The position numbers and the translations under genes were made by a program. The notes beneath the pieces were generated by a model. The model searched no databases. It had not been told where the DNA came from and saw nothing but the letters and a program-made list of their open reading frames with translations. Source: Porphyrobacter sp. ULC335 (lineage in GTDB: Bacteria > Pseudomonadota > Alphaproteobacteria > Sphingomonadales > Sphingomonadaceae). From it: DNA of 64,000 nt. Where the stretch lies: assembly GCF_025917005.1 (NCBI RefSeq), contig NZ_CP078091.1, positions 1,612,001 through 1,676,000 of the forward strand, read 5' to 3'. Positions 19,664-41,748 of this stretch are shown here, one piece after another (the stretch's first letter is position 1; each line of letters starts with the position of its first letter).

Positions 19664-20040
19664 TTTTATCGGGCGAGCCCGTTCAGCCAGCACTCTAAGC
19701 CCATGGCTAACAAAGTTGCGCAGAAACGTCCGTTTCGGAAAGTCGGGCGCTTTATTGCGTGCGACAGCCTGTATCTTCAAACAATCGCATAGCGGCAGGA
19801 TAACTTTATTGCGCACGTTTCGGCCGTCGATGGCTGAATGTGGGATTAACGCAACACGCCTTGAAAAAGTTCGCTGTTGCGAAGGGGCGCTTTGACATCA
19901 AACTTTCGCCATTGCACAAAACGGTCACTGCGGGGACTGAATTTGGCAACCTTTGAAGCGTGCGCCTCCCACCTGGGGCAATCTTGTGGTGGGCGCATGT
20001 GGTGGCCGTTTCGTCTCCGGTTTGGGCAACTGGAGTGACC
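19664..20040. other. Intergenic leader between clpB and the first TonB receptor
   Basis: About 377 bp with no convincing gene. It is visibly less GC-rich than its surroundings from 19720 onward, as expected for a promoter region. TTGACA at 19892-19897 is a perfect -35 hexamer, but the -10 at the right distance (CACAAA, 19915) is poor. CGTTTCGG occurs twice (19728 and 19816 regions). The ribosome site of the receptor gene is CTGGAG near 20029. Confidence 0.35.
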
Positions 20041-23617: not shown

Positions 23618-25612
23618 ATGAAACTTCTCAAAACCTCGCTCGCAGCCGCCCTGATCGGTGTTTCGGCCATCGGCCTTGTGGTCGCCAGTCCGACGCCCAC
23701 GCAGGCGCAGGGAAGCGTTCCCGTCGATGTCTGGGCGCTGCGCGATGTTGTCGACGCGGTGCAGATTTCGCCCAGCGGCAAATACTTGCTGGTTCACAAG
23801 GTTGAAAGCCGCGAAGGGGAGTACATTCTCGAAATCTACGATGCCGCCGATCTGTCCAAGCCGCTGCGCCGCCTCAACGCCGATCCGATGGAGATCGTCA
23901 GTGCGCAGTGGGTCAGCGATGATGTGATTTTCGGCTCCGCCTGGCAGGTCAACCGCAAGACTGTGAAGGGCCCGGAAGAAGACGTGCGCGATTACCGCAC
24001 GTATGCCTACACCCTTTCCACCAACAAGTTCACCAACGTCGACGGCAATTTCAGCATCGTCAATCTGCTTCCTAACGAGCCGGACCACGTGCTGGTCGCC
24101 TCCGGCACGATCGTGCCCGATGCCACCGGGGTCGATCCTTTCGCGGCGGCTCGCCCGCGCTCCTATTACCGCTTCGACCTGCGCACCGGTGCGCGGTCGC
24201 TGGTGTTGCGCGGCGGGGGCAAGATCCCCTACGTCTCGACATGGGATGATGAAGGCAATCCGCGCTACACCGAGATCCAGGACATCGCGGCCGGCAAGAT
24301 CATCTCCTACTATCGCAAGCCCGGTGACGGCGACTGGACAAAGCTTCAGGAACTTGACCTCAACGATCCCAAGAACCTCTACCGTGTTCTAGGCGGATTT
24401 TCAGGCGTGGCAGGGTTCGATCCGAAAGATCCGAACATCGGCTACCTGATCGACAATCGTGATGGTGACGACAAGTCGGGTCTTTACGAGTTCGATTTCA
24501 ACACCGGCCAGGTGGGCAAGAAGCTGTTCCAGAACACGGATTCGGACGTGATGGGCGTCCAGTTCCATTCGATCCCGGGCAACAACAAGCTCGTCGCTGC
24601 GCGTTTCCCCGGCGAGAAGATGGAGCGGCACTGGTTCGATGAGGAAGAGAAAGCGCTTTACGAAGCCCTTGAACAGCAGATTCCGAACGCATGGCAGGTG
24701 TCGATCTCTAGCCGCTCGCTTGATGGCAAGTCGATGGTTGTCACCAATCGCGGCCCGCGTGATCCGGGTTCGTTCTGGCTGGTGCAGAATGGCAAGCTTG
24801 CCAAGCTGGGAAGCCGTAACCCGCTGATCAGTCCCGATCAGCTGTCGGACGTGAAGTTCATCCGTTACCCAGCGCGTGACGGGCTGATGATCCCGGCATG
24901 GATCACCATCCCCAAGGGCAAGGGGCCTTTCCCGCTGATCGTGCAGCACAATGGCGGCCCGCAGGTCAACGGCATGGTCAGCTATGACGAATGGGGCCAG
25001 ATGCTTGCCAATGCGGGCTACATGGTGCTGCACCCTGACCAGCGCATTTCCGTGGGCTGGGGCCAAAAGCACTTCGACGCCGGTTACGGTGAGCACGGCG
25101 GCAAGATGCAGGACGACAAGGATGACGGCGTCCAGTATCTCATCGATCAGGGCCTGGTCGATCCCAACCGCGTGGCGTTCTTCGGCTGGTCATATGGCGG
25201 CTATTCCGCGCTGGTCTCGCTCAGCCGCGAGCCGCAGCTTTACCAGTGCGCAATTGCCGGTGCGGCGGTGGCGAACCCCGAAAAGCAGTATCTCGGTCGT
25301 CGGAACCCGGACCTCAAGGCGCTCGACGAGTGGGAGCGCCGCCGTGGCACCATCGGGGTCAACCCGATGAACGAGATTGCCAAGGTCAACATCCCGCTGC
25401 TGATGATCCACGGCAATGTCGACCGCCGCGTGCAGTACTATCACATGAAGGACTACCAGAAGGCGTTCCAGGCTGCCGGCAAGACCGGCGAGTTCATCAC
25501 GTTGGATGGCGCGGACCACTTCTACAATACGCTGATGTTCACCCACCAGCAGCAGCTCTACACCAAGATGCTCGACTATCTTGCGAATGATTGCGGCCCC
25601 GGCGGGCTGTAA
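23618..25612 (+). CDS. Secreted S9 family (prolyl oligopeptidase-type) peptidase
   Basis: A 664-aa exported serine peptidase. Signal peptide MKLLKTSLAAALIG cut after TQA-QG; residues about 35-380 form the beta-propeller part, and the alpha/beta-hydrolase part follows (PAWITIPKGKGPFPLIVQHNGGPQ). The catalytic triad is visible: Ser525 in GWSYGGY, Asp602 in HGNVDRRV, His634 in GADHF. It lies 175 bp after a TonB receptor in the same direction. The nearest functional parallels are dipeptidyl peptidases and the lasso-peptide isopeptidases of sphingomonads, which are S9 enzymes beside TonB receptors; no lasso precursor or maturation genes occur in this window, so that role is only a possibility. Confidence 0.9.
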   Translation: MKLLKTSLAAALIGVSAIGLVVASPTPTQAQGSVPVDVWALRDVVDAVQISPSGKYLLVHKVESREGEYILEIYDAADLSKPLRRLNADPMEIVSAQWVSDDVIFGSAWQVNRKTVKGPEEDVRDYRTYAYTLSTNKFTNVDGNFSIVNLLPNEPDHVLVASGTIVPDATGVDPFAAARPRSYYRFDLRTGARSLVLRGGGKIPYVSTWDDEGNPRYTEIQDIAAGKIISYYRKPGDGDWTKLQELDLNDPKNLYRVLGGFSGVAGFDPKDPNIGYLIDNRDGDDKSGLYEFDFNTGQVGKKLFQNTDSDVMGVQFHSIPGNNKLVAARFPGEKMERHWFDEEEKALYEALEQQIPNAWQVSISSRSLDGKSMVVTNRGPRDPGSFWLVQNGKLAKLGSRNPLISPDQLSDVKFIRYPARDGLMIPAWITIPKGKGPFPLIVQHNGGPQVNGMVSYDEWGQMLANAGYMVLHPDQRISVGWGQKHFDAGYGEHGGKMQDDKDDGVQYLIDQGLVDPNRVAFFGWSYGGYSALVSLSREPQLYQCAIAGAAVANPEKQYLGRRNPDLKALDEWERRRGTIGVNPMNEIAKVNIPLLMIHGNVDRRVQYYHMKDYQKAFQAAGKTGEFITLDGADHFYNTLMFTHQQQLYTKMLDYLANDCGPGGL

Positions 25613-25696: not shown

Positions 25697-26266
25697 TCAG
25701 GAAACGCGCCGGCCCTTGACCCCGATCTGTCCGTTGATGCGGATGAAGTAATAGCCGAACGATGCCCTCTTGAAGACCACCTTGTCGCCTTCCTTGATCG
25801 GCGCGAGCTTGCGCGGGGGACTGTTGATCTCCCAAACCGCACCCTCGGTCGTGGTGAAGCGCCAGGCGTTCGGACCGATCTGGCGGCCGCTGGCGATGGT
25901 GGTCTCGAGCATCTCCGAGTTCACCTCTTCGTCCTTGTCGTCACCCTTCAGAATGTCGACATCGGGCATGGTGATGCCGAACAACTGGCGGCGGGTCTGG
26001 CGCATCGCTTCGCGATCGACGAGCCGGACGTCACCTGCCTCTACCGCACCGAGCAGCGCGCCGACCTTGGCATCGTAACACGACACCCGCTCGCCTTCGC
26101 TCGTAAGCGCGCGGCACCCGCGCAATCCATCAAGCAAGCTCGCCGAGGATTGGAACGCGGGCTGCGCGACGACTGCTATGCTGCCGACAAACGCAATAGC
26201 CACCACCGCCGACGCTCTGGTCAGGATGCGGCGGGCGGATGGACGTTGGGCTGGTTGTCGGATCAT
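25697..26266 (-). CDS. Small exported protein with RVSCYD motif, paralogue of the one at 32070-32618
   Basis: A 189-aa protein starting MIRQPAQRPSARRILTR after AGGGAGAT, with an N-terminal membrane or signal segment (ASAVVAIAFVGSIAVV). The mature part has CRALTSEGERVSCYD, then VRLVDREAMRQTRRQLFGITMPD, and a C-terminal beta domain AWRFTTTEGAVWEIN...VKGRRVS. Its match in the other small protein is seen in the blocks (E)RxxCYD, VDRExxRxTRRxLFG and INGQxGVKGRRV. I know the C-x(n)-ERLACYD type of motif from many proteobacterial exported proteins of unknown role. It sits between an S9 peptidase and the second TonB receptor and diverges from the latter. Confidence 0.72.
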   Translation of the reverse strand: MIRQPAQRPSARRILTRASAVVAIAFVGSIAVVAQPAFQSSASLLDGLRGCRALTSEGERVSCYDAKVGALLGAVEAGDVRLVDREAMRQTRRQLFGITMPDVDILKGDDKDEEVNSEMLETTIASGRQIGPNAWRFTTTEGAVWEINSPPRKLAPIKEGDKVVFKRASFGYYFIRINGQIGVKGRRVS

Positions 26267-26407
26267 GCTGTATCTCCCTGCCTTGGCGCATAGCGTCAAT
26301 GCTAACGCCAGTCCAATCGCACACCTTCCAATTATTGCAGATATATCACACACGCCACCCTCGGCAGTTCATCAAACTGTATCAGAACTGCAACAGCTTC
26401 GCAGCAA

Positions 26408-26512: not shown

Positions 26513-29500
26513 ATGCAACGCTTCCAGAAAGCTTCGCTGCTTGCCGGTACGATCATGGCTGGCGCCATGTTTGCCGCTCCGGCCTACGCCCAGGACACCG
26601 ATACCGCTGATGTCACCGGTGCCGAAGAGGCAACCGAATCCACCGCGATCGTCGTCACCGGTTCGCGCATCCAGCGCAAGGACCTCGCGTCTGTCAGCCC
26701 GGTCTCGGTAGTTTCGCCCGAAGAATTCCGCCTCACCGGCGCCGTGAACGTCGAGCAGGTGCTTAACACCCTGCCGCAGGTTCTCCCCGGATTCACAGGC
26801 TTCTCGAACAACCCCGGCAACGGCTCGGTCACGCTGAACCTGCGCAACCTCGGTGCCACCCGTACCCTGGTGCTGGTCAACGGCCGCCGCTGGATGTTCG
26901 CTGACACCAACCAGCTGGTCGACCTTAACACCATCCCGCAGTTCCTGCTGAGCGGCGTTGACGTTGTGACCGGTGGTGCTTCGGCTGTTTACGGTTCGGA
27001 CGCTGTTGCCGGCGTCGTCAACTTCCGTCTGCGTGACGTCGAAGGCCTCGAGCTCGGCGGCAGCTACTCGCTGACCGGCGAGGGTGACGGCGCGCGTTAC
27101 CAGTTCAACGCTGCCATTGGTTCGGCCTTCGACGATGGTCGCGGTGCGGTGACCATGTTCGCCAACTACACCCGTCGTGAATCGGTCTTCCAGGACGCCC
27201 GTGAATTCTCCGAGCGTGCTGCTGGCGACGGCTGCATCAACGCTGGCACCACGGGCCGCGGTGATATCGGCACCCCGTTCTCCGGTCCGGGCGGCGCTCT
27301 CGTCAACTCGGCGACGGCGGGCCTGTGCGGCACCGGCACGCGTTCGGGCGGCCAGATCGGCTTCGTTCCGCAGGGTTCGCCCACCGGCCCGATCGGCACC
27401 TTCAACGCCGGTCCGACCGGCGCGCAGCTGCCCTTCATCTTCAATCCCACCGGTGGCGGTTCGCGCGCGTTCCAGGATCCGGCTGACCTCTACAACTTCG
27501 CACCGGACAACTACCTGCAGCTTCCGCAGGAACGTTACCTGATCGGTGCCTACGGCCACTACGAGTTCACCGACAACATCGAAGCCTACTCGGAACTCAC
27601 CTTCGTTCGTAACGAAGTGGCTGCCGAACTGGCGCCGACCCCGGCCGGCCTGTCGAACGTGCCGCTGTTCGTGAACAGCCCGTTCTTCAACGACCAGACC
27701 CGTGAACTCCTGAACCAGAACCCGGCGAACGCAACGCTCGGTGCTGGCTATCGTGACACCACGGTGAACTTCCGCTTCAACGACATCGGCAGCCGCCTTA
27801 CGCAGTTCAACCGTGAAGCCTTCCGCGTCCTTGGCGGCGTCCGTGGTTCGATCACCGACAACATCAACTTCGACGCGTTCTACTCGTATGCACGTACGAC
27901 CAACACGAACCTGCAGCGGGGCAACATCTCCTCGAGCCGGTTCCGCAATGCGCTGACCGTTGAGTTCGATCCGGCTAACCCGACCCAGCTGCGCTGCCGT
28001 GACGCATCGGCCCGCGCTGGTGGTTGCGTTCCGCTCAACGTCTTCGGTTCGGGTCTCGCTTCGCAGGCCGCACTGAACTACCTGTCGGTTGATGCGACCA
28101 ACATCACCACGTCGGAACTGACCAACGCGGTGGCCTCGGTCAACGGCTCGCTGTTCAACCTCGGCTTCGGTGCAGAAGACGTCGGCTTCGCGCTCGGTGT
28201 CGAATACCGCAAGATGGGTTCGGCGTTCATTCCTGACGAGTTCCTCTCCTCGGGTGACGTGCTCGGCTTCAACGCCGGCCTTCCGACCAGCGGCAGCTAC
28301 GACGTCAAGGAAATGTTCGGCGAAGTCCGCGTTCCGATCATCGAAGACGGCTTCATCGACCGCCTCTCGCTGGAAGGTTCGTTCCGCTACTCCGACTATT
28401 CGCTTGAGCAGGTCGGTGGCAACTGGACCTATGACCTCGGCTTCGAGCTGGCCCCGATCCAGGACATCCGCTTCCGCGGCCGTTACTCGCGTGCGGTGCG
28501 TGCACCGAACGTGCAGGATCTGTTCGGCGGCGTTGGCGTCGGCTTCCCTGCCGCGATCGACCCATGCTCGGATCGCGGTACTGCGGCTGAGCGGACCACG
28601 GCGCTGCGCAATTTCTGCATCGCTTCGGGCGTTCCGGCTGCTGCCGTGTTCACCCGTCCGGTTCAGCCTGCTGCGCAGATCCAGGGCGATTTCGGCGGCA
28701 ACCCCAACGTTGGCGAGGAAACCTCGGACACCTACACCGTCGGTGTCGTGTTCCAGCCGAGCTTCGTCCCGCGTCTGAACATCACGGCGGACTACTTCAA
28801 CATCACCGTTGAAGACCAGATTGCGACTCGTGCCGGTGGCATGGCAACCGCTCTTTCGTTGTGCTTCAACACGATCCAAAACGCTCAAGATCCGGTCTGC
28901 CGCGTGTTTGCCAACACCCGCAACCCCAACACTGGCGCGATCGGCCTCGGCAACGGCGGTCGTAACCCGCTGTTCGATCAGGCCAACGTTGGCTTGCTTG
29001 AAACCAGCGGTGTTGACGTTCAGGTCGACTACAGCCTGCCGCTGTTCAGTGGCGAACTGGGTCTGTTCTTCCTCGCGACTTGGCTCGACGAGTATCGCAG
29101 CACCCCGATTGCAGCCCTTCCGGCACGCGTGAACATCCTCGAAGGCACCTTCAGTAACGCCTTTGGTGCGTTGCCGGAGTACCGGCACAACATGCGTGTG
29201 ACCTACACGCAGGGTCCGGCGCTGTTCTCGCTGCGCTGGCGTCACGAGGGCGGGATGGAAGATGGCCGCATCAAGAACGTGTTCAACGGGCTTGAGCGTA
29301 TCGGGACCGACCCGGCTGTTCTGCCGCGTCCGGAAATCGGTGCCTGGAATTACTTCGATCTGGCTCTGAGCCTCGACATCGACGAGCGCATGACGATTAA
29401 CGCTGGTGTGAACAACGTGTTCGACAAGCAGCCCCCGGTTCTGGGTGCGCAGGCCGAACAGGGCAACACCATGCCGAGCTTCTTCGACGTGCTCGGCCGC

Positions 29501-29533
29501 GACTTCTTCGTGGGCGTGAACTTCCGCTTCTGA
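26513..29533 (+). CDS. TonB-dependent receptor (1006 aa)
   Basis: Outer-membrane receptor with signal peptide (MQRFQKASLLAG, cut after AYA-QD), an acidic linker, IVVTGSRIQRKDL, the plug (LNTIPQFLLSGVDVVTGGASAVYGSDAVAGVVNFRL) and a barrel ending VNFRF. The start follows CAAGGGGACC. Codon choice is strikingly uniform (GGT/GGC, CGT/CGC, TTC, AAC), suggesting strong expression. Conserved barrel turns RGRYSRAVRAPNVQDLF and TSDTYTVGVVFQP are shared with the third receptor (36170-39406), to which it seems closer than to the first. It is flanked by the small exported protein (divergent) and by the modifying-enzyme genes (convergent). The ligand is unknown. Confidence 0.92.
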   Translation: MQRFQKASLLAGTIMAGAMFAAPAYAQDTDTADVTGAEEATESTAIVVTGSRIQRKDLASVSPVSVVSPEEFRLTGAVNVEQVLNTLPQVLPGFTGFSNNPGNGSVTLNLRNLGATRTLVLVNGRRWMFADTNQLVDLNTIPQFLLSGVDVVTGGASAVYGSDAVAGVVNFRLRDVEGLELGGSYSLTGEGDGARYQFNAAIGSAFDDGRGAVTMFANYTRRESVFQDAREFSERAAGDGCINAGTTGRGDIGTPFSGPGGALVNSATAGLCGTGTRSGGQIGFVPQGSPTGPIGTFNAGPTGAQLPFIFNPTGGGSRAFQDPADLYNFAPDNYLQLPQERYLIGAYGHYEFTDNIEAYSELTFVRNEVAAELAPTPAGLSNVPLFVNSPFFNDQTRELLNQNPANATLGAGYRDTTVNFRFNDIGSRLTQFNREAFRVLGGVRGSITDNINFDAFYSYARTTNTNLQRGNISSSRFRNALTVEFDPANPTQLRCRDASARAGGCVPLNVFGSGLASQAALNYLSVDATNITTSELTNAVASVNGSLFNLGFGAEDVGFALGVEYRKMGSAFIPDEFLSSGDVLGFNAGLPTSGSYDVKEMFGEVRVPIIEDGFIDRLSLEGSFRYSDYSLEQVGGNWTYDLGFELAPIQDIRFRGRYSRAVRAPNVQDLFGGVGVGFPAAIDPCSDRGTAAERTTALRNFCIASGVPAAAVFTRPVQPAAQIQGDFGGNPNVGEETSDTYTVGVVFQPSFVPRLNITADYFNITVEDQIATRAGGMATALSLCFNTIQNAQDPVCRVFANTRNPNTGAIGLGNGGRNPLFDQANVGLLETSGVDVQVDYSLPLFSGELGLFFLATWLDEYRSTPIAALPARVNILEGTFSNAFGALPEYRHNMRVTYTQGPALFSLRWRHEGGMEDGRIKNVFNGLERIGTDPAVLPRPEIGAWNYFDLALSLDIDERMTINAGVNNVFDKQPPVLGAQAEQGNTMPSFFDVLGRDFFVGVNFRF

Positions 29534-29559: not shown

Positions 29560-29596
29560 GGGCGGCGGATCACACGATCCGCCGCCCTTTTTCTTT
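29560..29596 (+). terminator. Rho-independent terminator after the second TonB receptor
   Basis: GGGCGGCGGATC (29560-29571) and GATCCGCCGCCC (29576-29587) pair around ACAC and are followed by TTTTTCTTT. On the other strand it lies 30 bp past the end of the convergent oxygenase gene. Confidence 0.92.
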
Positions 29597-29625: not shown

Positions 29626-31308
29626 TCAGGCGGTGGGGGTAACGTCGAACGCCACGGTCATGCGCGTTCCCCGCGTGATCGGGCGGGTGCCATGGAACAG
29701 CGTGCTCGGAAACAGCACAAGCGTACCCGGCTGCGGCCGTATGGCATGGAGGCGCGACAGGCTATCGGCCAGTCCCGGAGGCGGATTGCCGAGCTCAAGC
29801 CATCCCGCTTCGCCCGGCGCATCCACCTCGTCCGGCACCAGCCAGTAACTCGCCGAGGACAAGAGCCCGCGCGGGTGAATATGCGCCGCGTGATGGCCCT
29901 CTCCGTTGAGAAAGATCGACCAGCTGCCGATGATCGACCAAGGGTCATCCCTGCGTGACAGCAGCGGGTGATCGGCATCATGGGCAGGCAGTCCCGCACG
30001 GTATTCCGCCAACGCTGCCAGAAGCGCCGCTTCAAGCCGCGCCAGTTCCGGCTCGGCCCGGGCGAACAGCGCGCCCTTTGTCTGGCTGCCACGCTTGACC
30101 GACTGGCCGATCGGCATGGCCGAGTGGCGATGCAACTGCTTTAGCAGTGCCGTGATGCTCTCCCGCTCCGCGTCATCAAGCGGCAAAGCCAACTGGCGCA
30201 CAAGCCCCGTTTGTCCGTGGAGCCATTCGTGCCGCGGATCGCCTGCGAGCCGCCAGCACAGGTCGGTCAGCGCCCATGCAGTGACATCCGTGGGCCGTGC
30301 TGCCAGCACTGTCGCTAGCTCCGCTTCGGCACGCGCGATCTCGCCGAGCCGTAACAGGTTGCGCCCGCGCGCTGTCGCCCAATCGGGCGATGCGATTGCG
30401 GCAAACTGGTCCAGCACGCCCTGTGCTTCCCCTACCGCCCCTGCTTCGCCCAGCGCCACAGCCTGTGCCAGCGCGAGATCAGTGTCCTGTGGCCAGACCG
30501 CGCGGGCGCGGGCAAGGATCGCTGCACTCTCCGCGGGCCGGTCGACGCCGTCCAGCACTTCGCACCATGCCAGCCAGACCGCAGGGCCAGCCCCTTGCAT
30601 GGCGGTGATCGTCTCGAAATGATCGGCGAACGGCTCCCGCTCGCCCGCCGCCCAGCGCAGTTCGGCATGGAGTTTGAGCGCATCGGTCCAGCCCGGCACG
30701 TGCGTGACCAGCGTGGTGGTGCATTCCAGCGCCTCGCCCATCCGCCCCTCGACCGCGAGAGCCTGCGCATAGTCGAACAGCAGGCTTGGATCGCCGCGGT
30801 TAAGCGTCAAGGCGGTCTCGATATGCGCCACAGCCTGCGGATCACTGCGTTCGAGCGCAAGGCGGGCGCGGCTTCGAGCGGTCTTGGCTCCGCCGGGGTC
30901 GAGCGCCACAGCGCGTGCCATGCTCGCCGATGCATCGCGATACCGCCCGGCCTGCCGCTCGCTATCCGCACGGATGCGCCAGTAATTGGGGTGGCCACTC
31001 GCGGCCGACTCCAGCGGGGCGAGCAGCGTGACGGCGCGATCAGGACGGCCGAGCCGGCCAAGCGCGATGGCTGCGTTGACCCCGGCCTCGACCAGATCGG
31101 GCGCGATCGCCAGCGCCCGTTCAAACAGCGCAAGCGCGCGTTCGTGGCGTCCGGCTTTGAAGTGGAAATTGCCCGCACTATTGGCGAGCCGCGCGTCCTG
31201 CGGGAAGTCTGCCAACCCGCGCTCGTAAAGGGCATCGGCTTCGACATCGCGCCCCTGCGCGGCAAGCGCGCTGGCCTGCTGCGCGATTCCCTGCGCACTG
31301 ATCGTCAT
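29626..31308 (-). CDS. TPR protein with C-terminal 2OG-Fe(II) oxygenase domain
   Basis: A 560-aa cytoplasmic-looking protein without signal peptide. Residues 1 to about 370 are tetratricopeptide-like helices (EADALYERGLADFPQDARLANSAG and similar units). Residues about 400-560 form a 2-oxoglutarate/Fe(II) oxygenase domain of the kind called putative 2OG-Fe(II) oxygenase (TIGR02466-like): GSQTKGALF, GSWSIFLNGEGHHAAHIHP, SSASYWLVP, then LFPSTLFHGTRP. Candidate ligands are H476, H478, H539 with R549 for oxoglutarate; the first pair is H-x-H instead of the usual H-x-D. It resembles the protein at 34585-36099 along its whole length. CGGGAGCG precedes the ATG. It is the last gene of the modifying-enzyme run. 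The target is unknown, probably a peptide held by the TPRs. Confidence 0.82.
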   Translation of the reverse strand: MTISAQGIAQQASALAAQGRDVEADALYERGLADFPQDARLANSAGNFHFKAGRHERALALFERALAIAPDLVEAGVNAAIALGRLGRPDRAVTLLAPLESAASGHPNYWRIRADSERQAGRYRDASASMARAVALDPGGAKTARSRARLALERSDPQAVAHIETALTLNRGDPSLLFDYAQALAVEGRMGEALECTTTLVTHVPGWTDALKLHAELRWAAGEREPFADHFETITAMQGAGPAVWLAWCEVLDGVDRPAESAAILARARAVWPQDTDLALAQAVALGEAGAVGEAQGVLDQFAAIASPDWATARGRNLLRLGEIARAEAELATVLAARPTDVTAWALTDLCWRLAGDPRHEWLHGQTGLVRQLALPLDDAERESITALLKQLHRHSAMPIGQSVKRGSQTKGALFARAEPELARLEAALLAALAEYRAGLPAHDADHPLLSRRDDPWSIIGSWSIFLNGEGHHAAHIHPRGLLSSASYWLVPDEVDAPGEAGWLELGNPPPGLADSLSRLHAIRPQPGTLVLFPSTLFHGTRPITRGTRMTVAFDVTPTA

Positions 31309-31333
31309 TGCGCGCTCCCGGGCCTCACTGGTC

Positions 31334-32065
31334 TCATCGACTGCGCAACCATCCGGTCACCGCCATCCGTCCCATTGGCGCAAAGGGCGGGACATAGGTG
31401 ACGAGGTGCGATTGCGGCACGCGGAACAGGTTGAGCGCGTTGAAGCGCGGGCGGAAGCCTTCGACCACGTCGCCATCGTCGTCGAGGAACAGCAGATAAC
31501 CGCCCCAGTCGGGATGCCAGTCATCGCGGGCGAGGTTGAGGACGTAGGCGACCTCCCACCCCTCGGCGACATGACTGTCGGTATGGCGGCCGAGATAGTG
31601 GTTCGGCGCAAACAGCGTGGCCTGGGCATCGGCCTTGAACAGGTGATCGATCCCCGTCACTGCGCGCGCCAGATCGAGGAAATCGGGCGTGTTGAGGTGT
31701 TCGAGCAGCACCTCATGCGCGCCGCCGGGATCCCAGCCTTCGCGCAGCGTCTCAAGGATCGGGTAATGCGCGAAGCGGAAGCCATATTCGCCGCGCGCTG
31801 AGTGTTGTTCGGCGTTGCGGGCAGCCTGCTGGAGCGCCTGCTGGCCTTCCTGTGTGCGGGTTTTTGCGGCGCTGAAGCTCTCCGGCTTCGCGGTGCCCGC
31901 GCCCACCGCCATGCCCCACGGCGTGCCCTTGGCGAGCACCAGCAGCAATTCACGCGCGCTCTCCGGCGTCAGCACGTCGCGCACCTGCACCCGGCCCGTC
32001 GCGGCGAACCGCTCTGCGAGCGCCGGCACATCGAGCGCGGGATTGAGTTCGAACAACGTCTTCAT
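31334..32065 (-). CDS. 2OG-Fe(II) oxygenase, prolyl 4-hydroxylase-like
   Basis: A 243-aa single-domain oxygenase with a canonical iron triad: H161-T-D163 in GRHTDSHVAEGWEVAYVLNL, distal H220 in VPQSHLVTYV, and R233 in GRMAVTGWL for oxoglutarate. The pattern HTD...WGGYLLFLDD...FNALNLFRVP is that of prolyl-hydroxylase-type enzymes such as Ofd1/PiuC relatives. No signal peptide, so it acts in the cytoplasm. Its start lies 4 bp after the stop codon of the small exported protein gene (TAG-CCGC-ATG) without a clear ribosome site of its own, pointing to translational coupling. Substrate unknown; a peptidyl proline or other side chain is inferred from family. Confidence 0.85.
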   Translation of the reverse strand: MKTLFELNPALDVPALAERFAATGRVQVRDVLTPESARELLLVLAKGTPWGMAVGAGTAKPESFSAAKTRTQEGQQALQQAARNAEQHSARGEYGFRFAHYPILETLREGWDPGGAHEVLLEHLNTPDFLDLARAVTGIDHLFKADAQATLFAPNHYLGRHTDSHVAEGWEVAYVLNLARDDWHPDWGGYLLFLDDDGDVVEGFRPRFNALNLFRVPQSHLVTYVPPFAPMGRMAVTGWLRSR

Positions 32066-32069
32066 GCGG

Positions 32070-32618
32070 CTAGCGGACGCGGCGTCCCTTCACGCCCTTC
32101 TGCCCGTCGATACGCAGGAAGTAGCTGCTCATGGCTCCGCTCTTGATCTCGAGAGTCTGGCCGACCTTAGGCCGCATAAGTCGCGCAGGCATCTCGTCCA
32201 GCTGCCACTCCGCGCCTTCCGCGGTGGTGATGACGACGCTCCCCTTGACCGGGCGCACCGCAGTAATGGTCGTGTTGAGTGCAGTGAACTCCTCGGCCTG
32301 TGCGGGGTCTTCCTTGTCGCTCTTGCCGCCGAAGATGCCGAGATCGGGGAGGCTGAAGCCGAACAGCTTGCGCCGCGTCTCGCGAACCTGCTCTCGGTCG
32401 ACGACCTGCACATCGCCTTCGCTGCTGGCCGAAACCATCGCAGCCACCGCAGTGTCGTAACAGGCGAGGCGCTCTGCCGGGTCGGACTTGCCCTGACAAT
32501 CGCGCAGCGCCGCCACATAGGCGCTCTCGCCCTTGTTGTCCTGCGCGGAGAGCGGCGACGCGGCGATCAGGGCGGCGAGCATCACCGGGGCGGCGGCTGC
32601 GACACGGATACGGGTCAT
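32070..32618 (-). CDS. Small exported protein with RLACYD motif, paralogue of the one at 25697-26266
   Basis: A 182-aa protein with a clear signal peptide (VAAAAPVMLAALIAA, cut near SPLSA-QD) after GAGGGAGA. Mature features: CQGKSDPAERLACYD with two cysteines, VQVVDREQVRETRRKLFGFSLPDLG, an acidic/lysine linker, and a C-terminal strand-rich part VVITTAEGAEWQLDE...YFLRIDGQKGVKGRRVR that looks like a small SH3-like barrel. It is coupled to the 2OG-Fe(II) oxygenase that follows. That the two paralogues flank the second TonB receptor and its enzymes suggests they belong to the same system, perhaps as periplasmic partners or substrates; this is inference. Confidence 0.78.
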   Translation of the reverse strand: MTRIRVAAAAPVMLAALIAASPLSAQDNKGESAYVAALRDCQGKSDPAERLACYDTAVAAMVSASSEGDVQVVDREQVRETRRKLFGFSLPDLGIFGGKSDKEDPAQAEEFTALNTTITAVRPVKGSVVITTAEGAEWQLDEMPARLMRPKVGQTLEIKSGAMSSYFLRIDGQKGVKGRRVR

Positions 32619-32707
32619 TATGGTTATCTCCCTCGCGGGCGCGAAGCCCTGTCCTTGCGCCTCTGATTACGCCGCTGTGCGCAACGTGGCAAACCCTGTG
32701 CTGCGGA

Positions 32708-34579
32708 TCAGCTATCGTATCCCATCCGCTCCGCCCAGGGCGCCAGAATCGGCATGACCGGTGCAAGCTGATCGGAATATCGCTGCCAGCGGCCGCTGGC
32801 GCGGGTGTAGAGCTTCTCGCCGATCTGCGCATAGCTGGCGGTGCGCACGCGGCTGCGGGTGCGCGCGGTTTCCTCGTGAGCGAGCAGGCGGTCGTTCCAT
32901 TCCAGCCCGAGCCAGGCGACCAGCGGCTGCAATTCGCCCGCCGGGTCTTCGACCAGTCGTTCGTAGCGGACGGTGTGCGCGGCAAGGGGGAAGATCTCCC
33001 CCCCGCGATGCCATGCGCGGAACACTGCGTCATAGGTCAGTGCCGCTTCCTCAAGATCGGTGAAGCTGCGCATCGCGTGGTTGAGCGTGAAGTTCGCCAT
33101 GAAGCAGCTCAGCACCACATCGGCCGGGTGGCGTTCGGCCAGGATGAAGCGCGCGTTGGGGAACAGGCGGTGGATCACCGGCGCGCGCGCCATGTTGAGC
33201 GGGTGCTTGTCCACCAGCCAGCGTGTGCCGTCCCACCCATGCTGCATCGCGCTGGCGAAATAGGCCTCGCGCAGCTGTCCGCACTGATCGGAGGTGAGAT
33301 CGGCAAGATCGACCTTGCCGATCATCCGCAGAACCTCGGCCACCATCGGCTGTTCTTCGAGCACGGCGAGGTCCGGCAGGCCCATCAGCATCGTATCCAA
33401 GAGCGTCGTGCCCGATCGGGGGAAGCCGACAAGAAACACCGGATCGCGCCGCGCCGGATCGGGAGTAAGCGGCGGTGCCCAGCGTGCGGCCCATTCCGTG
33501 GTCCAGCGCGCGCAATCGGCCTCCACCTCTGCGCGGAAGCTCGGCCCTCTGCGCGGCGGGGCTTCGGCGATGGCGGCGGCATTCATCCGCGCGAAGGCAG
33601 CAAAGGCGCGCGGGGCATCGCCGAGCCGCTCTGCGATATTGCCGATCAGCGCCTCGCGCCGGATCGGATGGATGGTCGCCGGGATCGCTTCGGCATAGCG
33701 GGCAGCATCCTCGAACCGGCCCTCGCGCTGGGCGAGCCAGGCATGGAGGAACGCGACTTCGGGCGGGCAGGCCGCCGGATCGAGCGCCGCAAGGAAGGCG
33801 GCGAGCGCTTCGGTGCGGTTGGTCGCTTCGTACAGCCGTCCGAGTTCGAGATGGGACTCACCGAATTCGGGCCAACGCTGCGTGGCCGCTTCAAGCACCG
33901 CGATTGCTTCGTCGAGCAGCTCGTTATGGGCCAGCGCCATCGCCAACTCGGTCTGCACGGCGCGGTCGTCCGGGGCGATTTCTGCGGCATCGCGCGCAAC
34001 CTTCAGGCGCGGTGCCCCCCGGTCGGCGCGGCGCAGCACGTCGGCAAGGTTGAGATACATCTTGGGTTCGTCCGGCCGATGGGTGATCGCCTGTTCCAGT
34101 GCGATGATCGCCGGATCGAAGCGCCCTGCGGCGGCGTGGATGTTGCCGAGGTTGTTCCAGCTCGCCGCATCGGCCGGTTCGGCCTGAAGCACGCGGGCAT
34201 AGGCGGCAACGGCGGCGGCATGTTCGCCGCGCTGCTGGCGCACCCACGCCTCGATCCGGGCGAGTGCGGGCAACTGTGCGCCGTCCGCGAGGGCGAGCGC
34301 TTCATCCTCGCGCCCGGCGGCGAGCAGTGCTTTCGCCAGATCGGCGCGAATCTCGACATCGCCCGGACGCAGCTTTGCCAGTGCCTCAAGATGAGCGACT
34401 GCGCGGGTCGCATCGCCGAGTTCCAGCGCGGCAAGCCCTGCGATGGCGAGGAACGGCGCGCCTGCTTCGCTCGCGGCGGCGTGGGCTTCGGCCAGTGCCA
34501 AAGCGCCAGCGGCATCGCCCGTCTGCCGCAGACGGATCGCTTCGGCGAGGGCGGGGGCCAGAGCAGCGGGCTGGTTCAT
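32708..34579 (-). CDS. TPR-containing sulfotransferase
   Basis: A 623-aa protein: TPR-like repeats over residues about 1-370 (for example NNLGNIHAAAGRFDPAIIALEQAITHRPDEPKMYLNLADVLRRA, given here in part), then a PAPS-dependent sulfotransferase domain. The 5'-phosphosulfate loop is FLVGFPRSGTTLLDTML (R388-S-G-T-T) and the 3'-phosphate region is RFILAERHPADVVLSCF, both typical. The ATG at 34579 follows CAGGAT, 5 bp after the preceding gene's stop; the longer TTG frame overlaps that gene deeply and is rejected. No signal peptide. TPR-sulfotransferases of this kind resemble tyrosylprotein sulfotransferases in layout, so a peptide acceptor is plausible; acceptor not known. Confidence 0.88.
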   Translation of the reverse strand: MNQPAALAPALAEAIRLRQTGDAAGALALAEAHAAASEAGAPFLAIAGLAALELGDATRAVAHLEALAKLRPGDVEIRADLAKALLAAGREDEALALADGAQLPALARIEAWVRQQRGEHAAAVAAYARVLQAEPADAASWNNLGNIHAAAGRFDPAIIALEQAITHRPDEPKMYLNLADVLRRADRGAPRLKVARDAAEIAPDDRAVQTELAMALAHNELLDEAIAVLEAATQRWPEFGESHLELGRLYEATNRTEALAAFLAALDPAACPPEVAFLHAWLAQREGRFEDAARYAEAIPATIHPIRREALIGNIAERLGDAPRAFAAFARMNAAAIAEAPPRRGPSFRAEVEADCARWTTEWAARWAPPLTPDPARRDPVFLVGFPRSGTTLLDTMLMGLPDLAVLEEQPMVAEVLRMIGKVDLADLTSDQCGQLREAYFASAMQHGWDGTRWLVDKHPLNMARAPVIHRLFPNARFILAERHPADVVLSCFMANFTLNHAMRSFTDLEEAALTYDAVFRAWHRGGEIFPLAAHTVRYERLVEDPAGELQPLVAWLGLEWNDRLLAHEETARTRSRVRTASYAQIGEKLYTRASGRWQRYSDQLAPVMPILAPWAERMGYDS

Positions 34580-34584
34580 CACGG

Positions 34585-36099
34585 TCAATCCTGTCGGGGG
34601 CGGGCAATGTCGAAAGCGACAGTCAGCCGCTCGCCCGCAGGGAACGGGCGCGTACCATGCCACATGGTCGAAGGGAACAGCACGAGGCGGCCGGGCCTGG
34701 GCTCGACGAGGCGAAGCGGGGCGAGACCCGGCACCAGATCGCGCACCTCGCCAAGGCTGAGCCAACCGGCGTGATTATCCTCCCCGCGCCCGAGGCTTTC
34801 GGGAAGAGCAAGGTAGAGCGCCGAGCTGAACCAGCCCTGCGGGTGGACGTGATCGGTGTGAAATCCGGCGTTCTGGAGGCGCACAGACCATGACCCTGCG
34901 ATCCGCAGCGGGGCGCGGTGGTGGGGCAGGGTTGGGTGGTCAGGCTTGGGCGGCGGGAGCTGGGCGACATGGCGCTCGACAAGCGCGAGCAGCCGCGCCT
35001 TGAGGTCGCGGATAACGGGATCGACGCGCAGCAGCAGGTTGCCATCGGTCTGGGTGCCCCCGCGCACCGACTGGTCGAGCGGGGCGCTGGTCGCGACGTG
35101 CAGCGCACGCAGGTGATCGGCAAGGGTAGCCAGCTCGGCAGAGGTCAGGCCGATGTCATACACGCCAACGAGCCGCGGATCGCCCTCCAGCCATTGCGCG
35201 CGCGGATCGCCGAGCATTCGCCAAGCCAGCGAGGCATAGGGCCACAGCGCCTGCGCGCCCGGCTGGCCGAGCAGCGGTTCGATTGTCGCGGCGGCGCGTT
35301 CGGGCTGGTTTGATCGGATGCGGTGGCGGGCGTGCATCCACGCGGCATGGGGATCTGCGGGCGGGCCAGCGGCGGCGAAGTGCGTGTCGGCAGTGTCAGT
35401 GGCACCGGTTTCGGACGCGACATGCCCGGCAAGCAGGCTGAGCCAGAGCGGACTGCCGAGCGCGGATTGCGCTGAGGTGACAGCTGCCCCGGCGCGGGCA
35501 AGGTCGCGGGCTTGCAAGGCAAGCGAGATGGAAAGGTGATGAAGCTCGGTAGCGCGGGGGTGGGAGGCGAGGGCTTGCGTGATGCTTGCCAAAGGGTCTT
35601 GCCCCATCTGGCCACGAAGGGCGGCAAGGCTGCGATGCCCGTCGGGCCAGAGCGGATTGGCGGCAAGGGCGTGTTCCAGCAGGGCCATGCCTTCGTCAGG
35701 CCTGCCTTCGTGCAGCAAGGCTGCAGCATGCCCGAGCAGGACGCCACCGTCTTGCGGTGCAAGCGCGGCAGCGGCCACAAACAGCTCGGCGGCAGGGAAG
35801 CCCGCTTCAAGCGCGGTGCGGGCGCAGGAGTGGGCGATCAGCGCATCGCGCGGCGCGAGCCTCGCAGCGGTGCGGAAAGCTTCACAAGCGGTCAGGCTGT
35901 CGCCACACGCTCTGGCGGCAAGGCCAAGCAATTGCTGCGCCTGCACGCTGGCAGGGTGGCGCTCGGCGAGCGTGCGGGCGTGGGGCAGCAGCATTTCGGG
36001 AAAGTCGGCGTTGATCAGCGCCAGCCCCGATCCCAGCGCCGCCGCCGGGTCGGAGAGGGGGAATTGCGCAATCCGGGCAAGGGCTTCGGCGTGGTTCAC
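34585..36099 (-). CDS. TPR protein with C-terminal 2OG-Fe(II) oxygenase domain, paralogue of 29626-31308
   Basis: A 504-aa protein starting with GTG at 36099 (MNHAEALARIAQF) after GGGGGATACG. TPR-like helices fill residues 1 to about 300; the C-terminal oxygenase part has DQSVRGGTQTDGNLL, GSWSVRLQNAGFHTDHVHPQGWFSSALYLALPE in part, and LFPSTMWHGTRPFPAGERLTVAFD. The iron region reads HTDHVHP: it carries both an H-T-D and the H-V-H pair that aligns with H-I-H of the paralogue, so which residues bind iron is open. It is the first gene of the enzyme run, 70 bp after the third TonB receptor with a terminator hairpin between, and 5 bp before the sulfotransferase gene. Confidence 0.82.
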   Translation of the reverse strand: MNHAEALARIAQFPLSDPAAALGSGLALINADFPEMLLPHARTLAERHPASVQAQQLLGLAARACGDSLTACEAFRTAARLAPRDALIAHSCARTALEAGFPAAELFVAAAALAPQDGGVLLGHAAALLHEGRPDEGMALLEHALAANPLWPDGHRSLAALRGQMGQDPLASITQALASHPRATELHHLSISLALQARDLARAGAAVTSAQSALGSPLWLSLLAGHVASETGATDTADTHFAAAGPPADPHAAWMHARHRIRSNQPERAAATIEPLLGQPGAQALWPYASLAWRMLGDPRAQWLEGDPRLVGVYDIGLTSAELATLADHLRALHVATSAPLDQSVRGGTQTDGNLLLRVDPVIRDLKARLLALVERHVAQLPPPKPDHPTLPHHRAPLRIAGSWSVRLQNAGFHTDHVHPQGWFSSALYLALPESLGRGEDNHAGWLSLGEVRDLVPGLAPLRLVEPRPGRLVLFPSTMWHGTRPFPAGERLTVAFDIARPRQD

Positions 36100-36117
36100 G
36101 CGGGTCGTATCCCCAAA

Positions 36118-36148
36118 CGAAAATGGCGGACCTCGCGGCCCGCCATCT
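36118..36148 (-). terminator. Terminator between the third TonB receptor and the enzyme run
   Basis: On the minus strand ATGGCGG (36146-36140) pairs with CCGCCAT (36129-36123), followed by TTTCGTTT. It lies 24 bp after the receptor stop codon and 24 bp before the next start; partial read-through would co-express the oxygenase and sulfotransferase genes. Confidence 0.65.
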
Positions 36149-36169
36149 CGTGTCTATCGAAGCAGACGC

Positions 36170-39100
36170 TTAGAAATCAAGCGTCACGCCTGCGAAGAGG
36201 TAGCGCCCGAGCGAGTCGTACACCTGCGCGTAAACGTTGCCGTTGCACGGACCGGCAGGGCAGGCCTGCGAGCCGGTGGTCGGCGGCGACTTGTCGAAGA
36301 CGTTGTTCGCGCCGAGGACGAAGTTGAAGTTGTCCCCTGCATCGAAGGTCAGCGACAGATCGAAGTAGTTGACCGCATCGAAGCCAGCCGCACCCGGACG
36401 GGCAACGGCATCGCCGCTGCTGGTGTCGCGAAGCGGCGGGCGACACGACGTGGCCGGAGCCGGACCCGCACAACCATTGTTGAACAGGTTGGAGTTCTCC
36501 TCAACCGCGTCCAGCGTAACGCTGCTGAAGTAGCGCCAGCGCACCGAAGCACCGATCCCGTTGCGGAAGTTGAACCCGAGACGGGCCTGATGGCGCCATT
36601 CGGGGTTCACCGCATTGGTGGCCGAGCAAACGTTGCCGTACAGACCGACGCAGTCATAGGTCTGGTCGAGACCCGGGATGCTGATGCCGGTGTCGGTGAC
36701 CAATTCATCGAGATAGGTCCCCATGAAGTTGAAGGTCAGCGTGCCGACATCACCGATTTCGGTACGGTAGTTGACCTGGGCGTCGATACCCGAAGTCTTG
36801 AACCCGCCGATGTTCTGCGTGATGTTGGTCACGAAGCCATTGGCCGAGCGCCACAGCGAACCCGAAGCATCGCGGTTGATAAGACCGCAGAAGAACGGAT
36901 CGGCCGTTGCCGTACAGGCGGTGAGAATGGTGTCCGAACCAATGCCCTGAACTGCATCGCTGATGTCGATACTGAAGTAATCGACGCTGGCGGTGAAGCC
37001 GGACAGGAAGGTCGGGGTCAGCACCACACCGCCCGTGAAGGTATCGGCCACTTCCGGCGACAGGTCGACGTTGCCGCCGATGAAGCCGTTATACTGGTCA
37101 GCCGGGTTCGGAGCGACGAACTGGCCAACGCTCAGGCCCTGGGCAAGACAGCCGGTGTTGGCTGCGGTAATGACCACGCCCGCACAGGGGTCCGACGAGG
37201 CATCAAGCGCCACGCGGTTCGGTGCGAACAGATCCTGGATCGTCGGTGCACGCACGGCCCGGTTGTAACCGCCGCGGATGCGGAAGTCGGCAGTCGGGGC
37301 GAACTCGCCTTCGATCTTGTAGGTGTCGGTGTTCACCCCGGTGCTGTAATCCGAGTAGCGATAGCCGCCGGTGATCGTGAAGTCATAGACCCAGCTGTCC
37401 TGCGCGATCGGGATACGGACTTCGGTGAAGAACTCCTTCACGTCGAAGCTGCCCGAAACCGGAAGCGACGGCGCGCCCTGACCGGCAAGGTCACCCGTGC
37501 TGAACGCGGTGTCCGAGAAGAAGTCGAGCTTCTCCTTGCGGTATTCGGCACCGAAGACGACGTCGACGCCCTGGTCGGACCAGGGGGTCTTGAAGCCGTA
37601 CTCGCCCAGCGAACCCGAAACGAAGGCGCTGGCCACCTGCTCGCTCACGATCCCGCGCGAGAAGCCCGGAGTCGAAAGGTACTGAAGCGAAGCCTGGCTC
37701 GGCGCGACGGTACCGGGGGAGAAGATGTCCCACGGCACGCAGTTCGGGTCGGACCCGTCGAGGGTCGAACGGCAAACGGCGTTCACGCCCGGACCCGGAT
37801 CAATGTCGACGACATCGAGCGCGCGGTTGAGACGCGAGACCGAGAAGTCGTTGAGGTAGGTCTGGGCGTAGTTGTTGCGGCCGTACTGGTAGTAGGCATC
37901 ATACGACCATGCCGGCGACAGATCACCCTTCACGCCGAGAACGGCGCGATAGCTGACGTGCTGGAGATCGTCCTGACGCGCACCGCCTTCGACGTTGCGG
38001 CGCAGGATCTGCGCGAAGCCACGGTTGTAGGTCGAGCCGGTCAAGGGGTCGACGAAGTTGAACGGCGTGGTCGGCAGCAGCGGTTCGCCAATACCGCGAT
38101 CGATGCGGTCCTGGTTTTCCTGAGCGACATTGCCGGTCACGATGAAGGCGTTGCCCGGCAGCGGGCTGACCAGCAGGTTTTCGTTGTCGCACAGCTGCGC
38201 GCGCTGATTGGCCGAAACCAACGGGTTGTCGCAGTTGATCGACAGGGTGTTGCCGAAGTTGCCCGAAGGAGCGATCTGGGCGACCGTGCGGTCGTCCATG
38301 AACATGAACTCCATGTACGGCTTGATCGCGCTCGAGATTTCGTAGTCGGCAAAGACGCCGGCCGTGTAACGCTCGTCGGGACGCTGGAAGTAGTTCAGCG
38401 GACCGAAGTTGAAGACGCTGTTGCCTTCGAGCAGCGTGCGGTTGGGGCCGAACTGACCGATGGTCGAGGTCAGCGAATCCGCAACGCCATTGCCGTCCGC
38501 GTCGGTCAGGACGTCGAAATCGTCGTAGAAGAACACGGTGCCGTTCGCCGAAGTGGCCGAGCCACCGCAGGTGTACTGGCGACCGTCAGCCGGAATTTCG
38601 TCGGCACGGCGGGCGCTCAGCGAGCACGCCGAGTAGTCGCGGCGGGCCTGAAGCACCGGATCGATCTTGCGGTAACCGGCATAGGCGGTGACGCGGCCGC
38701 GGCCGTCGTCAAAGCTGCTGCCGAAAGCGACTGTGGCGTCAAAGGTGCCGCCATCGGTGACCATGCCGGTCGGGTAGCCGAACCCGCGTGCGTCAAGCGC
38801 GCCGCGGATGTTGTTGCTCGCCCGGTTCTGGTGGTTGTAGACGCCATAGTTGGCGTTGATCTTGAAGCCTTCGAAGTCGGTATCGAGCACGAAGTTCACA
38901 ACGCCCGCGACCGCATCGGCACCATACACCGACGAAGCGCCGCCGGTCAGCACGTCGACGCGCTCGATCAGAGCGGCGGGGATCGCGTTGATGTCGGCAG
39001 CCGAGGTGCTCGGCGTGCCCGGCATCAGGCGGCGGCCATTGACCAGCACCAGCGTACGCTCGGCACCAAGGCCGCGCAGGTTGAGGGTCGCCGTACCGGT

Positions 39101-39406
39101 CGAGCCGTTCGAGACGCTACCACCCTGCGCCGCAAAGACCTGCGGCAGCGAGTTGATGAGGTCTTCGGTACGGGTGGTCCCGGTGATCGCGAATTCTTCA
39201 GCGGTCACGACGGTGACGGGGCTGGCCGATTCCAGGTTCGGCGAGCGCAGACGCGTACCCGTAACGACGATGGCTTCGCCGGGGGCTTCGCTTTCTGCGG
39301 TGGTATCAGTGGTTACGTCAGCATCCTGCGCGAATGCAGGGGCCCCGACTGTAAGCGCGATTACGGCGGTTGCCGCACCGGCCTTGAGAAGCGCGTGCTT
39401 CCTCAT
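36170..39406 (-). CDS. TonB-dependent receptor (1078 aa)
   Basis: Outer-membrane receptor. AGAGGAGGAAG precedes the start; the signal peptide (MRKHALLKAGAATAV) is cut after AFA-QD. A linker leads to IVVTGTRLRSPNL, then the plug (INAIPAALIERVDVLTGGASSVYGADAVAGVVNFVL) and a barrel ending VTLDF. A loop at 302-310 reads DADGNGVAD, a calcium-loop pattern, next to a cysteine pair (C261, C280). The turn RGGYNRAVRAPTIQDLFAPN is shared with the second receptor. Its position at the head of the enzyme run makes it the most likely partner of the TPR-oxygenases and sulfotransferase. Inverted TTGAC repeats lie just upstream. Ligand unknown. Confidence 0.92.
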   Translation of the reverse strand: MRKHALLKAGAATAVIALTVGAPAFAQDADVTTDTTAESEAPGEAIVVTGTRLRSPNLESASPVTVVTAEEFAITGTTRTEDLINSLPQVFAAQGGSVSNGSTGTATLNLRGLGAERTLVLVNGRRLMPGTPSTSAADINAIPAALIERVDVLTGGASSVYGADAVAGVVNFVLDTDFEGFKINANYGVYNHQNRASNNIRGALDARGFGYPTGMVTDGGTFDATVAFGSSFDDGRGRVTAYAGYRKIDPVLQARRDYSACSLSARRADEIPADGRQYTCGGSATSANGTVFFYDDFDVLTDADGNGVADSLTSTIGQFGPNRTLLEGNSVFNFGPLNYFQRPDERYTAGVFADYEISSAIKPYMEFMFMDDRTVAQIAPSGNFGNTLSINCDNPLVSANQRAQLCDNENLLVSPLPGNAFIVTGNVAQENQDRIDRGIGEPLLPTTPFNFVDPLTGSTYNRGFAQILRRNVEGGARQDDLQHVSYRAVLGVKGDLSPAWSYDAYYQYGRNNYAQTYLNDFSVSRLNRALDVVDIDPGPGVNAVCRSTLDGSDPNCVPWDIFSPGTVAPSQASLQYLSTPGFSRGIVSEQVASAFVSGSLGEYGFKTPWSDQGVDVVFGAEYRKEKLDFFSDTAFSTGDLAGQGAPSLPVSGSFDVKEFFTEVRIPIAQDSWVYDFTITGGYRYSDYSTGVNTDTYKIEGEFAPTADFRIRGGYNRAVRAPTIQDLFAPNRVALDASSDPCAGVVITAANTGCLAQGLSVGQFVAPNPADQYNGFIGGNVDLSPEVADTFTGGVVLTPTFLSGFTASVDYFSIDISDAVQGIGSDTILTACTATADPFFCGLINRDASGSLWRSANGFVTNITQNIGGFKTSGIDAQVNYRTEIGDVGTLTFNFMGTYLDELVTDTGISIPGLDQTYDCVGLYGNVCSATNAVNPEWRHQARLGFNFRNGIGASVRWRYFSSVTLDAVEENSNLFNNGCAGPAPATSCRPPLRDTSSGDAVARPGAAGFDAVNYFDLSLTFDAGDNFNFVLGANNVFDKSPPTTGSQACPAGPCNGNVYAQVYDSLGRYLFAGVTLDF

Positions 39407-40916: not shown

Positions 40917-40942
40917 TCCCCCCCTGTCTGAGAGGAAAACCA

Positions 40943-41728: not shown

Positions 41729-41732
41729 GCGA

Positions 41733-41748
41733 TGTTTCACGTGGAACC
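41733..41748. promoter_or_regulatory. Second parS-like site TGTTTCACGTGGAACC
   Basis: Matches the parS consensus at 14 of 16 positions (the differing bases are in the right arm), with intact CACGTG centre. It lies directly after the dehydrogenase gene and 12 bp before an array of the same 11-bp repeat found beside the perfect parS at 1306-1321, about 40 kb away. Variants ending GTGGAAC are common among alphaproteobacterial parS sites. Confidence 0.65.

Follow-up and report, generated by a model that had tools for sequence, protein, structure and literature searches.

Genes for putative protein-modifying enzymes are set beside genes for TonB-dependent receptors (TBDRs) in a 64,000-nucleotide stretch of the chromosome of Porphyrobacter sp. 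ULC335 (Sphingomonadaceae; contig NZ_CP078091.1, positions 1,612,001 to 1,676,000; hereafter the window, with positions counted from its first letter), and these enzymes are very probably linked to the receptors. A preliminary description of this DNA had drawn attention to a receptor (here TBDR2) followed on the same strand by a TPR-2-oxoglutarate (2OG) oxygenase, a TPR-sulfotransferase, a small exported protein (sExp2), a prolyl-hydroxylase-type 2OG oxygenase and a second TPR-2OG oxygenase, and had read the set as a receptor-linked system acting on one peptide or protein. By neighbourhood, domain family and fold, the gene set does look like a receptor-linked protein-modification system, while the idea of one run acting on one substrate gives way to two separable modules: A, with TBDR2, TPR-2OG oxygenase A, the sulfotransferase and sExp2, and B, with a second receptor (TBDR1), the prolyl-hydroxylase-type enzyme, TPR-2OG oxygenase B and a second small exported protein (sExp1). 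The pairing of receptor and enzymes recurs in related genera, suggesting that bacteria may chemically decorate particular receptors prior to their export.

Pairing of receptors and enzymes across Sphingomonadales

The preliminary description had proposed a check of co-occurrence in related genomes. This was run from both sides, and the pairing of enzymes with receptors proved to be conserved. Starting from the enzymes, we found PF13759, the family of both TPR-2OG oxygenases, in 109 of 147 Sphingomonadales genomes; for the class as a whole the count is 83 of 193. The surrounding DNA (up to 20 kb) was then compared for 60 long-frame (at least 430 amino acids (aa)) and 20 short-frame PF13759 genes; these loci are a part of the matches listed, picked by eye on frame length and contig room, and some genomes contributed two of them (locus L101 contains a pair of these genes). 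Of the 60 long-frame proteins, 57 match TPR_19 and three do not, and no TPR model matches any of the 20 short-frame proteins. A TonB receptor lies within 10 kb in 47/60 long-frame loci as compared with 1/20 short-frame loci (Fisher p 5e-9), and a PF13469-type sulfotransferase is present in 16/60 and 0/20, respectively.

Part of this association between receptor and PF13759 is a shared genomic site. Of the 60 long-frame loci, 27 carry the markers that border the window cluster (ClpB or the acyl-CoA genes); all 27 have a receptor, and the receptor-less loci all fall among the remaining 33, of which 20 have one. Those 27 loci would fit a reading in which the genes merely share a hot spot beside clpB and do not cooperate. 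We consider this very unlikely, since a receptor accompanies the off-site genes in 20/33 loci against 1/20 controls, and since enzyme type tracks receptor clade.

Close receptor homologues are nearly always accompanied by the enzymes. This emerged when each receptor was searched against 119 genomes, so that loci were not chosen by their enzymes. Homologues of TBDR2 with at least 51% identity were found in 15 non-self genomes, 11 of which carry both a TPR-2OG and a sulfotransferase gene within 5 kb. The others have the sulfotransferase only (G162), a long-frame PF13759 gene with a TPR-AspH-type gene (G220), the start of TPR-2OG A up to the contig end (G260), or a contig that ends too early to judge (G209). 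Among TBDR2 homologues at 37-46%, three of seven have a TPR-2OG gene. For TBDR1, every one of the 12 fetched loci of homologues at 49-60% carries a TPR-2OG gene together with a PF13661-type gene, and six more genomes, at 47-52%, have a convergent TPR-2OG gene 1.0-1.2 kb from the receptor match; at 41-44%, a TPR-2OG, sulfotransferase or PF13661-type gene is present in two of the seven loci examined. This coverage comprises 20 loci of the homologues listed and seven genomes placed by search, the other homologues listed being mostly of lower identity. G218 was excluded from the six, as the receptor 0.2 kb from its TPR-2OG gene is a 44% homologue, and the 48% receptor, 7 kb from that gene, has an internal stop codon. 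One further locus (L201, 47% to TBDR1) contains PF13661-type, sulfotransferase and TPR-AspH genes and no long-frame PF13759 gene.

In a tree of 128 receptors, those of module A (29 tips) and module B (21 tips) form separate clades, with a different set of enzymes for each. Within the stretch examined, a TPR-2OG or sulfotransferase gene accompanies 28 of the 29 module A tips, many of which were selected by their enzymes; in the exception (L169) the contig breaks off within a TPR-2OG gene whose start is preserved. Five further tips (L198, L199, L200, L203 and L204) have none of the TPR-2OG, sulfotransferase and PF13661-type genes, and the group that they form falls outside the TBDR1 clade. A comparison of paired with unpaired receptors gave columns conserved in the paired ones alone, 24 in TBDR1 and 21 in TBDR2 at the thresholds used. 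From the alignment, and with low confidence, the modifiable residues at these columns would be P92, P101, P377, D131, N471 and D997 in TBDR1, and D223, N386, D531, N555, D694 and Y682 in TBDR2. Two other candidates were set aside: Tyr 294 of TBDR2, which precedes an acidic stretch in the manner of a site for protein-tyrosine sulfotransferases (TPSTs), is Tyr in just 7/21 clade members, and no single site among the passing columns separates paired from unpaired receptors.

Organisation of the gene block

The window proteins were compared by tblastn with the loci of nine relatives (L067, L068 and L071-L077), which are not all independent, since L067 and L072 are close kin (88% identical DNA over 17.7 kb). 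TBDR2, TPR-2OG A, the sulfotransferase and sExp2 occur together in eight of the nine; the contig of the ninth (L077) begins partway through TPR-2OG A. Six loci (L067, L072, L073, L074, L076 and L077) have the full set of PF13661 gene, TPR-2OG B, TBDR1 and sExp1, and no orthologue of any of these genes was found in the other three (L068, L071 and L075). In L068 and L071, sExp2 is directly followed by the S9 peptidase, as though the four-gene block B had been lifted out. Because the module B genes are present or absent together in these nine relatives, the cluster, as read from its gene content, is composed of two receptor modules, with B present or missing as a block, rather than of a single run aimed at one substrate. 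In L068 and L071, which have no module B, a pair homologous to the third receptor and S9 peptidase of the window (20035-25612) comes directly after sExp2.

Table 1. Features of the two receptor modules and of the adjoining genes (positions in the window).
Feature	Position	Strand	Remarks
TBDR2, TonB-dependent receptor, module A	36170..39406	-	1078 aa, exported; Pfam Plug + barrel
TPR-2OG oxygenase A (PF13759), module A	34585..36099	-	504 aa; 69.8 bits
TPR-sulfotransferase (PF13469), module A	32708..34579	-	~623 aa from ATG 34579; 132.9 bits
sExp2, small exported protein, module A	32070..32618	-	182 aa; no Pfam match at E 0.01
2OG-Fe(II) oxygenase, prolyl-hydroxylase type (PF13661), module B	31334..32065	-	243 aa; 57.3 bits
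TPR-2OG oxygenase B (PF13759), module B	29626..31308	-	560 aa; 59.2 bits
Hairpin with T-rich tail, possible terminator, between converging genes	29560..29587	-	12 pairs; consensus match only
TBDR1, TonB-dependent receptor, module B	26513..29533	+	1006 aa; Pfam Plug + barrel
sExp1, small exported protein, module B, sExp2 paralogue	25697..26353	-	divergent from TBDR1
S9 peptidase adjoining the block	23618..25612	+	Pfam
Third TonB receptor, adjoins S9 gene	20035..23442	+	receptor tree + domain scan

All genes named in the preliminary description lie where it had placed them, and their domain families are borne out by Pfam (for the TPR of TPR-2OG A, by a structural model), with scores for the cluster enzymes and receptors that exceed the curated cut-offs (27 bits for PF13759); sExp1, at 25697-26353, had been omitted. 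Within the minus-strand run from TBDR2 to TPR-2OG B the gaps are 70, 5, 89, 4 and 25 bp. The two tight spacings reported earlier are correct, the sulfotransferase ATG at 34579 being 5 bp past the TPR-2OG A stop at 34585 and the start of the PF13661 gene 4 bp beyond the end of sExp2. TBDR1 is the second receptor that had been seen to converge on the run, with the hairpin at 29560-29587 between them. This hairpin and another at 25636-25665 are the two longest with a T tail and both lie outside the run; such matches show no excess overall, with 10 observed against a mean of 10.0 in shuffled sequence. The preliminary description had noted that no gene for the synthesis of 3'-phosphoadenosine-5'-phosphosulfate (PAPS) is nearby; adenosine-5'-phosphosulfate (APS) kinase, needed for PAPS, is encoded outside the window at chromosome position 80,136. 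The genome has 42 Plug matches, 41 of them above cut-off, and 10.8% of it lies within 5 kb of one; with this background, and with 47/60 long-frame against 1/20 short-frame loci in the survey, the pairing exceeds what chance would give. ClpB on one side of the cluster and three acyl-CoA-type genes on the other (17069-19663 and 39747-42784) mark a recurrent site for receptor/enzyme blocks.

Enzyme families and additional modifiers in sister loci

TPR models score above the Pfam cut-off in the sulfotransferase and in TPR-2OG B. In TPR-2OG A the Pfam TPR matches are weak and all under cut-off, and its predicted model (mean predicted local distance difference test score (pLDDT) 94.5) is a helical repeat that resembles TPR structures. 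The fusion of a TPR to a 2OG domain is thus assigned from Pfam in TPR-2OG B, and from weak Pfam matches and the predicted model in TPR-2OG A. Structure searches match the latter model to protein hydroxylases. H414, H417, H419, H481 and R491 of TPR-2OG A are invariant across 20 relatives, and the corresponding H-x-H and distal His (putative metal ligands) and Arg (putative 2OG-binding residue) are invariant in the 60 long and 20 short PF13759 proteins. PF05118, the AspH family, is not among the Pfam matches of the window oxygenases at E 0.01.

The solved sulfotransferases nearest to the sulfotransferase domain are TPST1 and TPST2, which match nearly the whole catalytic domain (E ~1e-15; the next nearest solved sulfotransferase has E 2.2e-5). 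Aligned to TPST, the window enzyme has PRSGTT, which we take to be the 5'-phosphosulfate loop, and EE, which presumably holds the catalytic Glu of TPST-type enzymes. At least 95% of 41 receptor-linked homologues keep the Arg, Gly and last Thr of PRSGTT, the second Glu of EE and the Asp-Lys of DKHP. A scan of the genome collection with the sulfotransferase returned two loci only.

In sister loci, additional modifier genes sit between the receptor and the oxygenase. These encode an aspartyl/asparaginyl hydroxylase with TPR and PF05118 (L135, L178 and L201 by Pfam; L135 against human AspH, E 1.4e-24), an S-adenosylmethionine (SAM) methyltransferase (L110, L190 and L195 by Pfam) or a PF13640 2OG oxygenase (L093 and L103, with a weak, sub-cut-off Sel1 match in L093). 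As the same slot can hold a TPR-AspH, a SAM methyltransferase or another 2OG oxygenase, the kit appears to be modular. A TPR-AspH profile gave E < 1e-100 in 15 loci (two of which are the same place), with all strong matches within 2.2 kb of a receptor save one of the two in L098 (7.0 kb), and a methyltransferase profile matched in 20 loci; since the loci scanned had been pre-picked for PF13759, sulfotransferase or receptor genes, this nearness to receptors is not an independent test. Weaker AspH-profile matches coincide with other TPR proteins and were excluded from the count.

The sulfotransferase pairing extends past the two receptor clades of the window: in L082, L083 and L084, a receptor of a different clade is accompanied by a TPR-sulfotransferase-type gene at a distance of 73-87 bp (measured between stop-to-stop frames). 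Four such sulfotransferase genes stand in tandem in L080 (genome G055), where no receptor was detected in the 20 kb examined.

Candidate substrates and known systems

The best 12-residue hydropathy mean near the protein start is 1.88-2.6 for the receptors, sExp1, sExp2 and the S9 protein and 0.47-1.66 for the four enzymes, which, by this simple scan, seem cytosolic. No other neighbour is as constant as the receptor, and those TPR-fused or 2OG relatives that are closest among the characterised ones act on proteins; for these reasons, and given the apparently cytosolic location, we suggest that the enzymes may bind and modify the receptor chain before its export. Each module would consist of one TonB-dependent receptor and its own side-chain-modifying enzymes, and we give an even chance to the reading in which that receptor is also the substrate. 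What is directly established comprises the genes and their families, the co-occurrence of receptor clade and enzyme and the predicted fold of one enzyme; from these we infer the substrate and the following course of events. The enzymes would remain in the cytosol, and the TPR superhelix would bind the newly made, unfolded receptor chain ahead of Sec export. The 2OG-Fe(II) domains would hydroxylate selected receptor residues, and the sulfotransferase would transfer sulfate from PAPS, probably onto a hydroxyl side chain such as that of tyrosine. The receptor would then arrive in the outer membrane with marks in its plug or loops that could tune ligand binding or gating. More tentatively, and with some doubt on our part, the Sphingomonadales may have a modular cytosolic kit of TPR-tethered hydroxylases, sulfotransferases and methyltransferases, each set serving one TonB receptor clade, such that receptors bear side-chain marks like those of eukaryotic secreted proteins.

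A number of observations weigh against such a link, or against the receptor as its target. No receptor was detected in 13 of the 60 long-frame loci, nor in any of five PF13759 loci outside the order, which are too few to conclude from and were 10-kb stretches searched with a receptor model built from Sphingomonadales. In the ULC335 genome itself, two neighbouring PF13759 genes (~400 aa; L069, 3.553 Mb) lie 122-124 kb from the nearest Plug match, and one PF13469 gene lies 31 kb from its own. Four of the seven TBDR2 homologues at 37-46% are without TPR-2OG and sulfotransferase genes (one of the four has a TPR-AspH gene 1.4 kb off), as are five of the seven TBDR1 homologues at 41-44%, which have no PF13661-type gene either. 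The differences between paired and unpaired receptors are spread over many columns, and no one site serves as a signature. The TPR-2OG A model has low template-modelling (TM) scores against AspH (0.27-0.32 by query), and AspH is absent from the 50 matches listed in a second structure search. The hydropathy scan separates enzymes from exported proteins only narrowly. Finally, TPST EETRVIPR, whose arginines we take to bind acidic acceptor peptides, aligns with EEQPMVAE in the window sulfotransferase; the acceptor-binding Arg positions are not kept, and an acidic-tyrosine specificity should therefore not be assumed.

The acceptor might instead be sExp1 or sExp2, which would then work with the receptor in the periplasm or be secreted. 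A whole-genome profile search found these two as the sole copies in the genome, both in the cluster; homologues are present in 27/60 long-frame and 0/20 short-frame PF13759 loci, and sExp2 is the gene that lies 4 bp from an oxygenase gene. We nevertheless regard this as decidedly unlikely, given that an sExp gene adjoins the receptor in three loci that yielded no TPR-2OG or sulfotransferase gene (L179, L180 and L182), that none was found in loci keeping enzyme and receptor (L175, L176, L188 and L197), and that strict conservation in the family is sparse (9 invariant columns among 20 sequences). Because sExp stands beside receptors also where those enzymes were not found, it appears more likely to be a receptor partner than a substrate, probably a periplasmic partner of the TBDR1/TBDR2 receptor class. 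A divergent sExp gene occurs at the receptor 5' end in 10/19, 11/28 and 10/55 receptors of three locus sets. The predicted sExp model (mean pLDDT 80, predicted TM-score (pTM) 0.57) has no PDB match at E <= 0.001. The family has 592 homologues, and among the 120 listed every named one is a hypothetical protein.

It is also conceivable, if unlikely, that the enzymes tailor a ribosomal peptide, as in ribosomally synthesised and post-translationally modified peptide (RiPP) pathways, which would be encoded elsewhere, exported and then recognised or retrieved by the receptor. An S9 peptidase adjoins the block, and Table 2 of a Pontixanthobacter study (PMC10040529) gives neighbouring cluster numbers to a lasso B2 protein, to sulfotransferases and to an aspartyl beta-hydroxylase, a hint that the same kinds of enzyme may also tailor lasso peptides. 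On the other hand, the compact run has no space inside it for a separate precursor gene and no exporter among its genes, no lasso B2/C maturation enzyme is among the matches of the 19 window proteins scanned (part of them at E 1e-10), and the S9 protein scores 32.6 bits against the Atxe2 lasso isopeptidase cut-off of 400.

Distinctly unlikely, in our view, is an action on an imported ligand or on a surface glycan or lipid instead of a protein. Both the 2OG and the sulfotransferase families include small-molecule enzymes, and some sulfotransferase relatives have no detected receptor in the stretch examined (L070, L080, L081, L085 and L088). Yet neither an inner-membrane importer nor a glycan gene occurs in the run, the nearest relatives of solved structure modify proteins, and the TPR-bearing forms are those that accompany receptors.

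To our knowledge, TonB receptors have been treated as unmodified barrels. If particular receptor clades are indeed hydroxylated and sulfated by dedicated enzymes, any account of ligand specificity and of the large receptor repertoires of these bacteria will have to allow for the modifications, and the enzymes could be turned into TPR-guided tools for modifying proteins; the two named receptors make the substrate question directly accessible to mass spectrometry. Each enzyme and receptor family is already known, and we found no description of the combination in the open-access literature, as covered by titles and the starts of abstracts, with subscription papers and preprints outside this scope.

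Several known systems share parts of the arrangement proposed here for the receptors. Human AspH likewise has a TPR helical repeat followed by a 2OG-Fe(II) domain and accounts for the ten best Foldseek matches of the TPR-2OG A model, and true TPR-AspH genes (PF05118) stand beside TonB receptors in sister loci; the window enzymes differ in being PF13759 proteins without a PF05118 match and in their apparently cytosolic location. TPST1 and TPST2 share the phosphosulfate-loop and EE residues with the window sulfotransferase, which departs from them in its TPR fusion and in the Arg positions that bind acidic peptides. The Pseudomonas putida prolyl-4-hydroxylase that acts on EF-Tu has no TPR, and its target is a cytosolic protein. 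RaxST of Xanthomonas is a bacterial sulfotransferase associated with a peptide that bears sulfated tyrosine, and serves a small secreted peptide rather than a receptor. It reportedly acts before secretion. In the pairs Aah/AIDA-I and TibC/TibA, an outer-membrane protein is modified before export by a cytosolic enzyme whose gene adjoins its own; there the modification is heptosylation of autotransporters, whereas here it would be hydroxylation and sulfation of TonB receptors.

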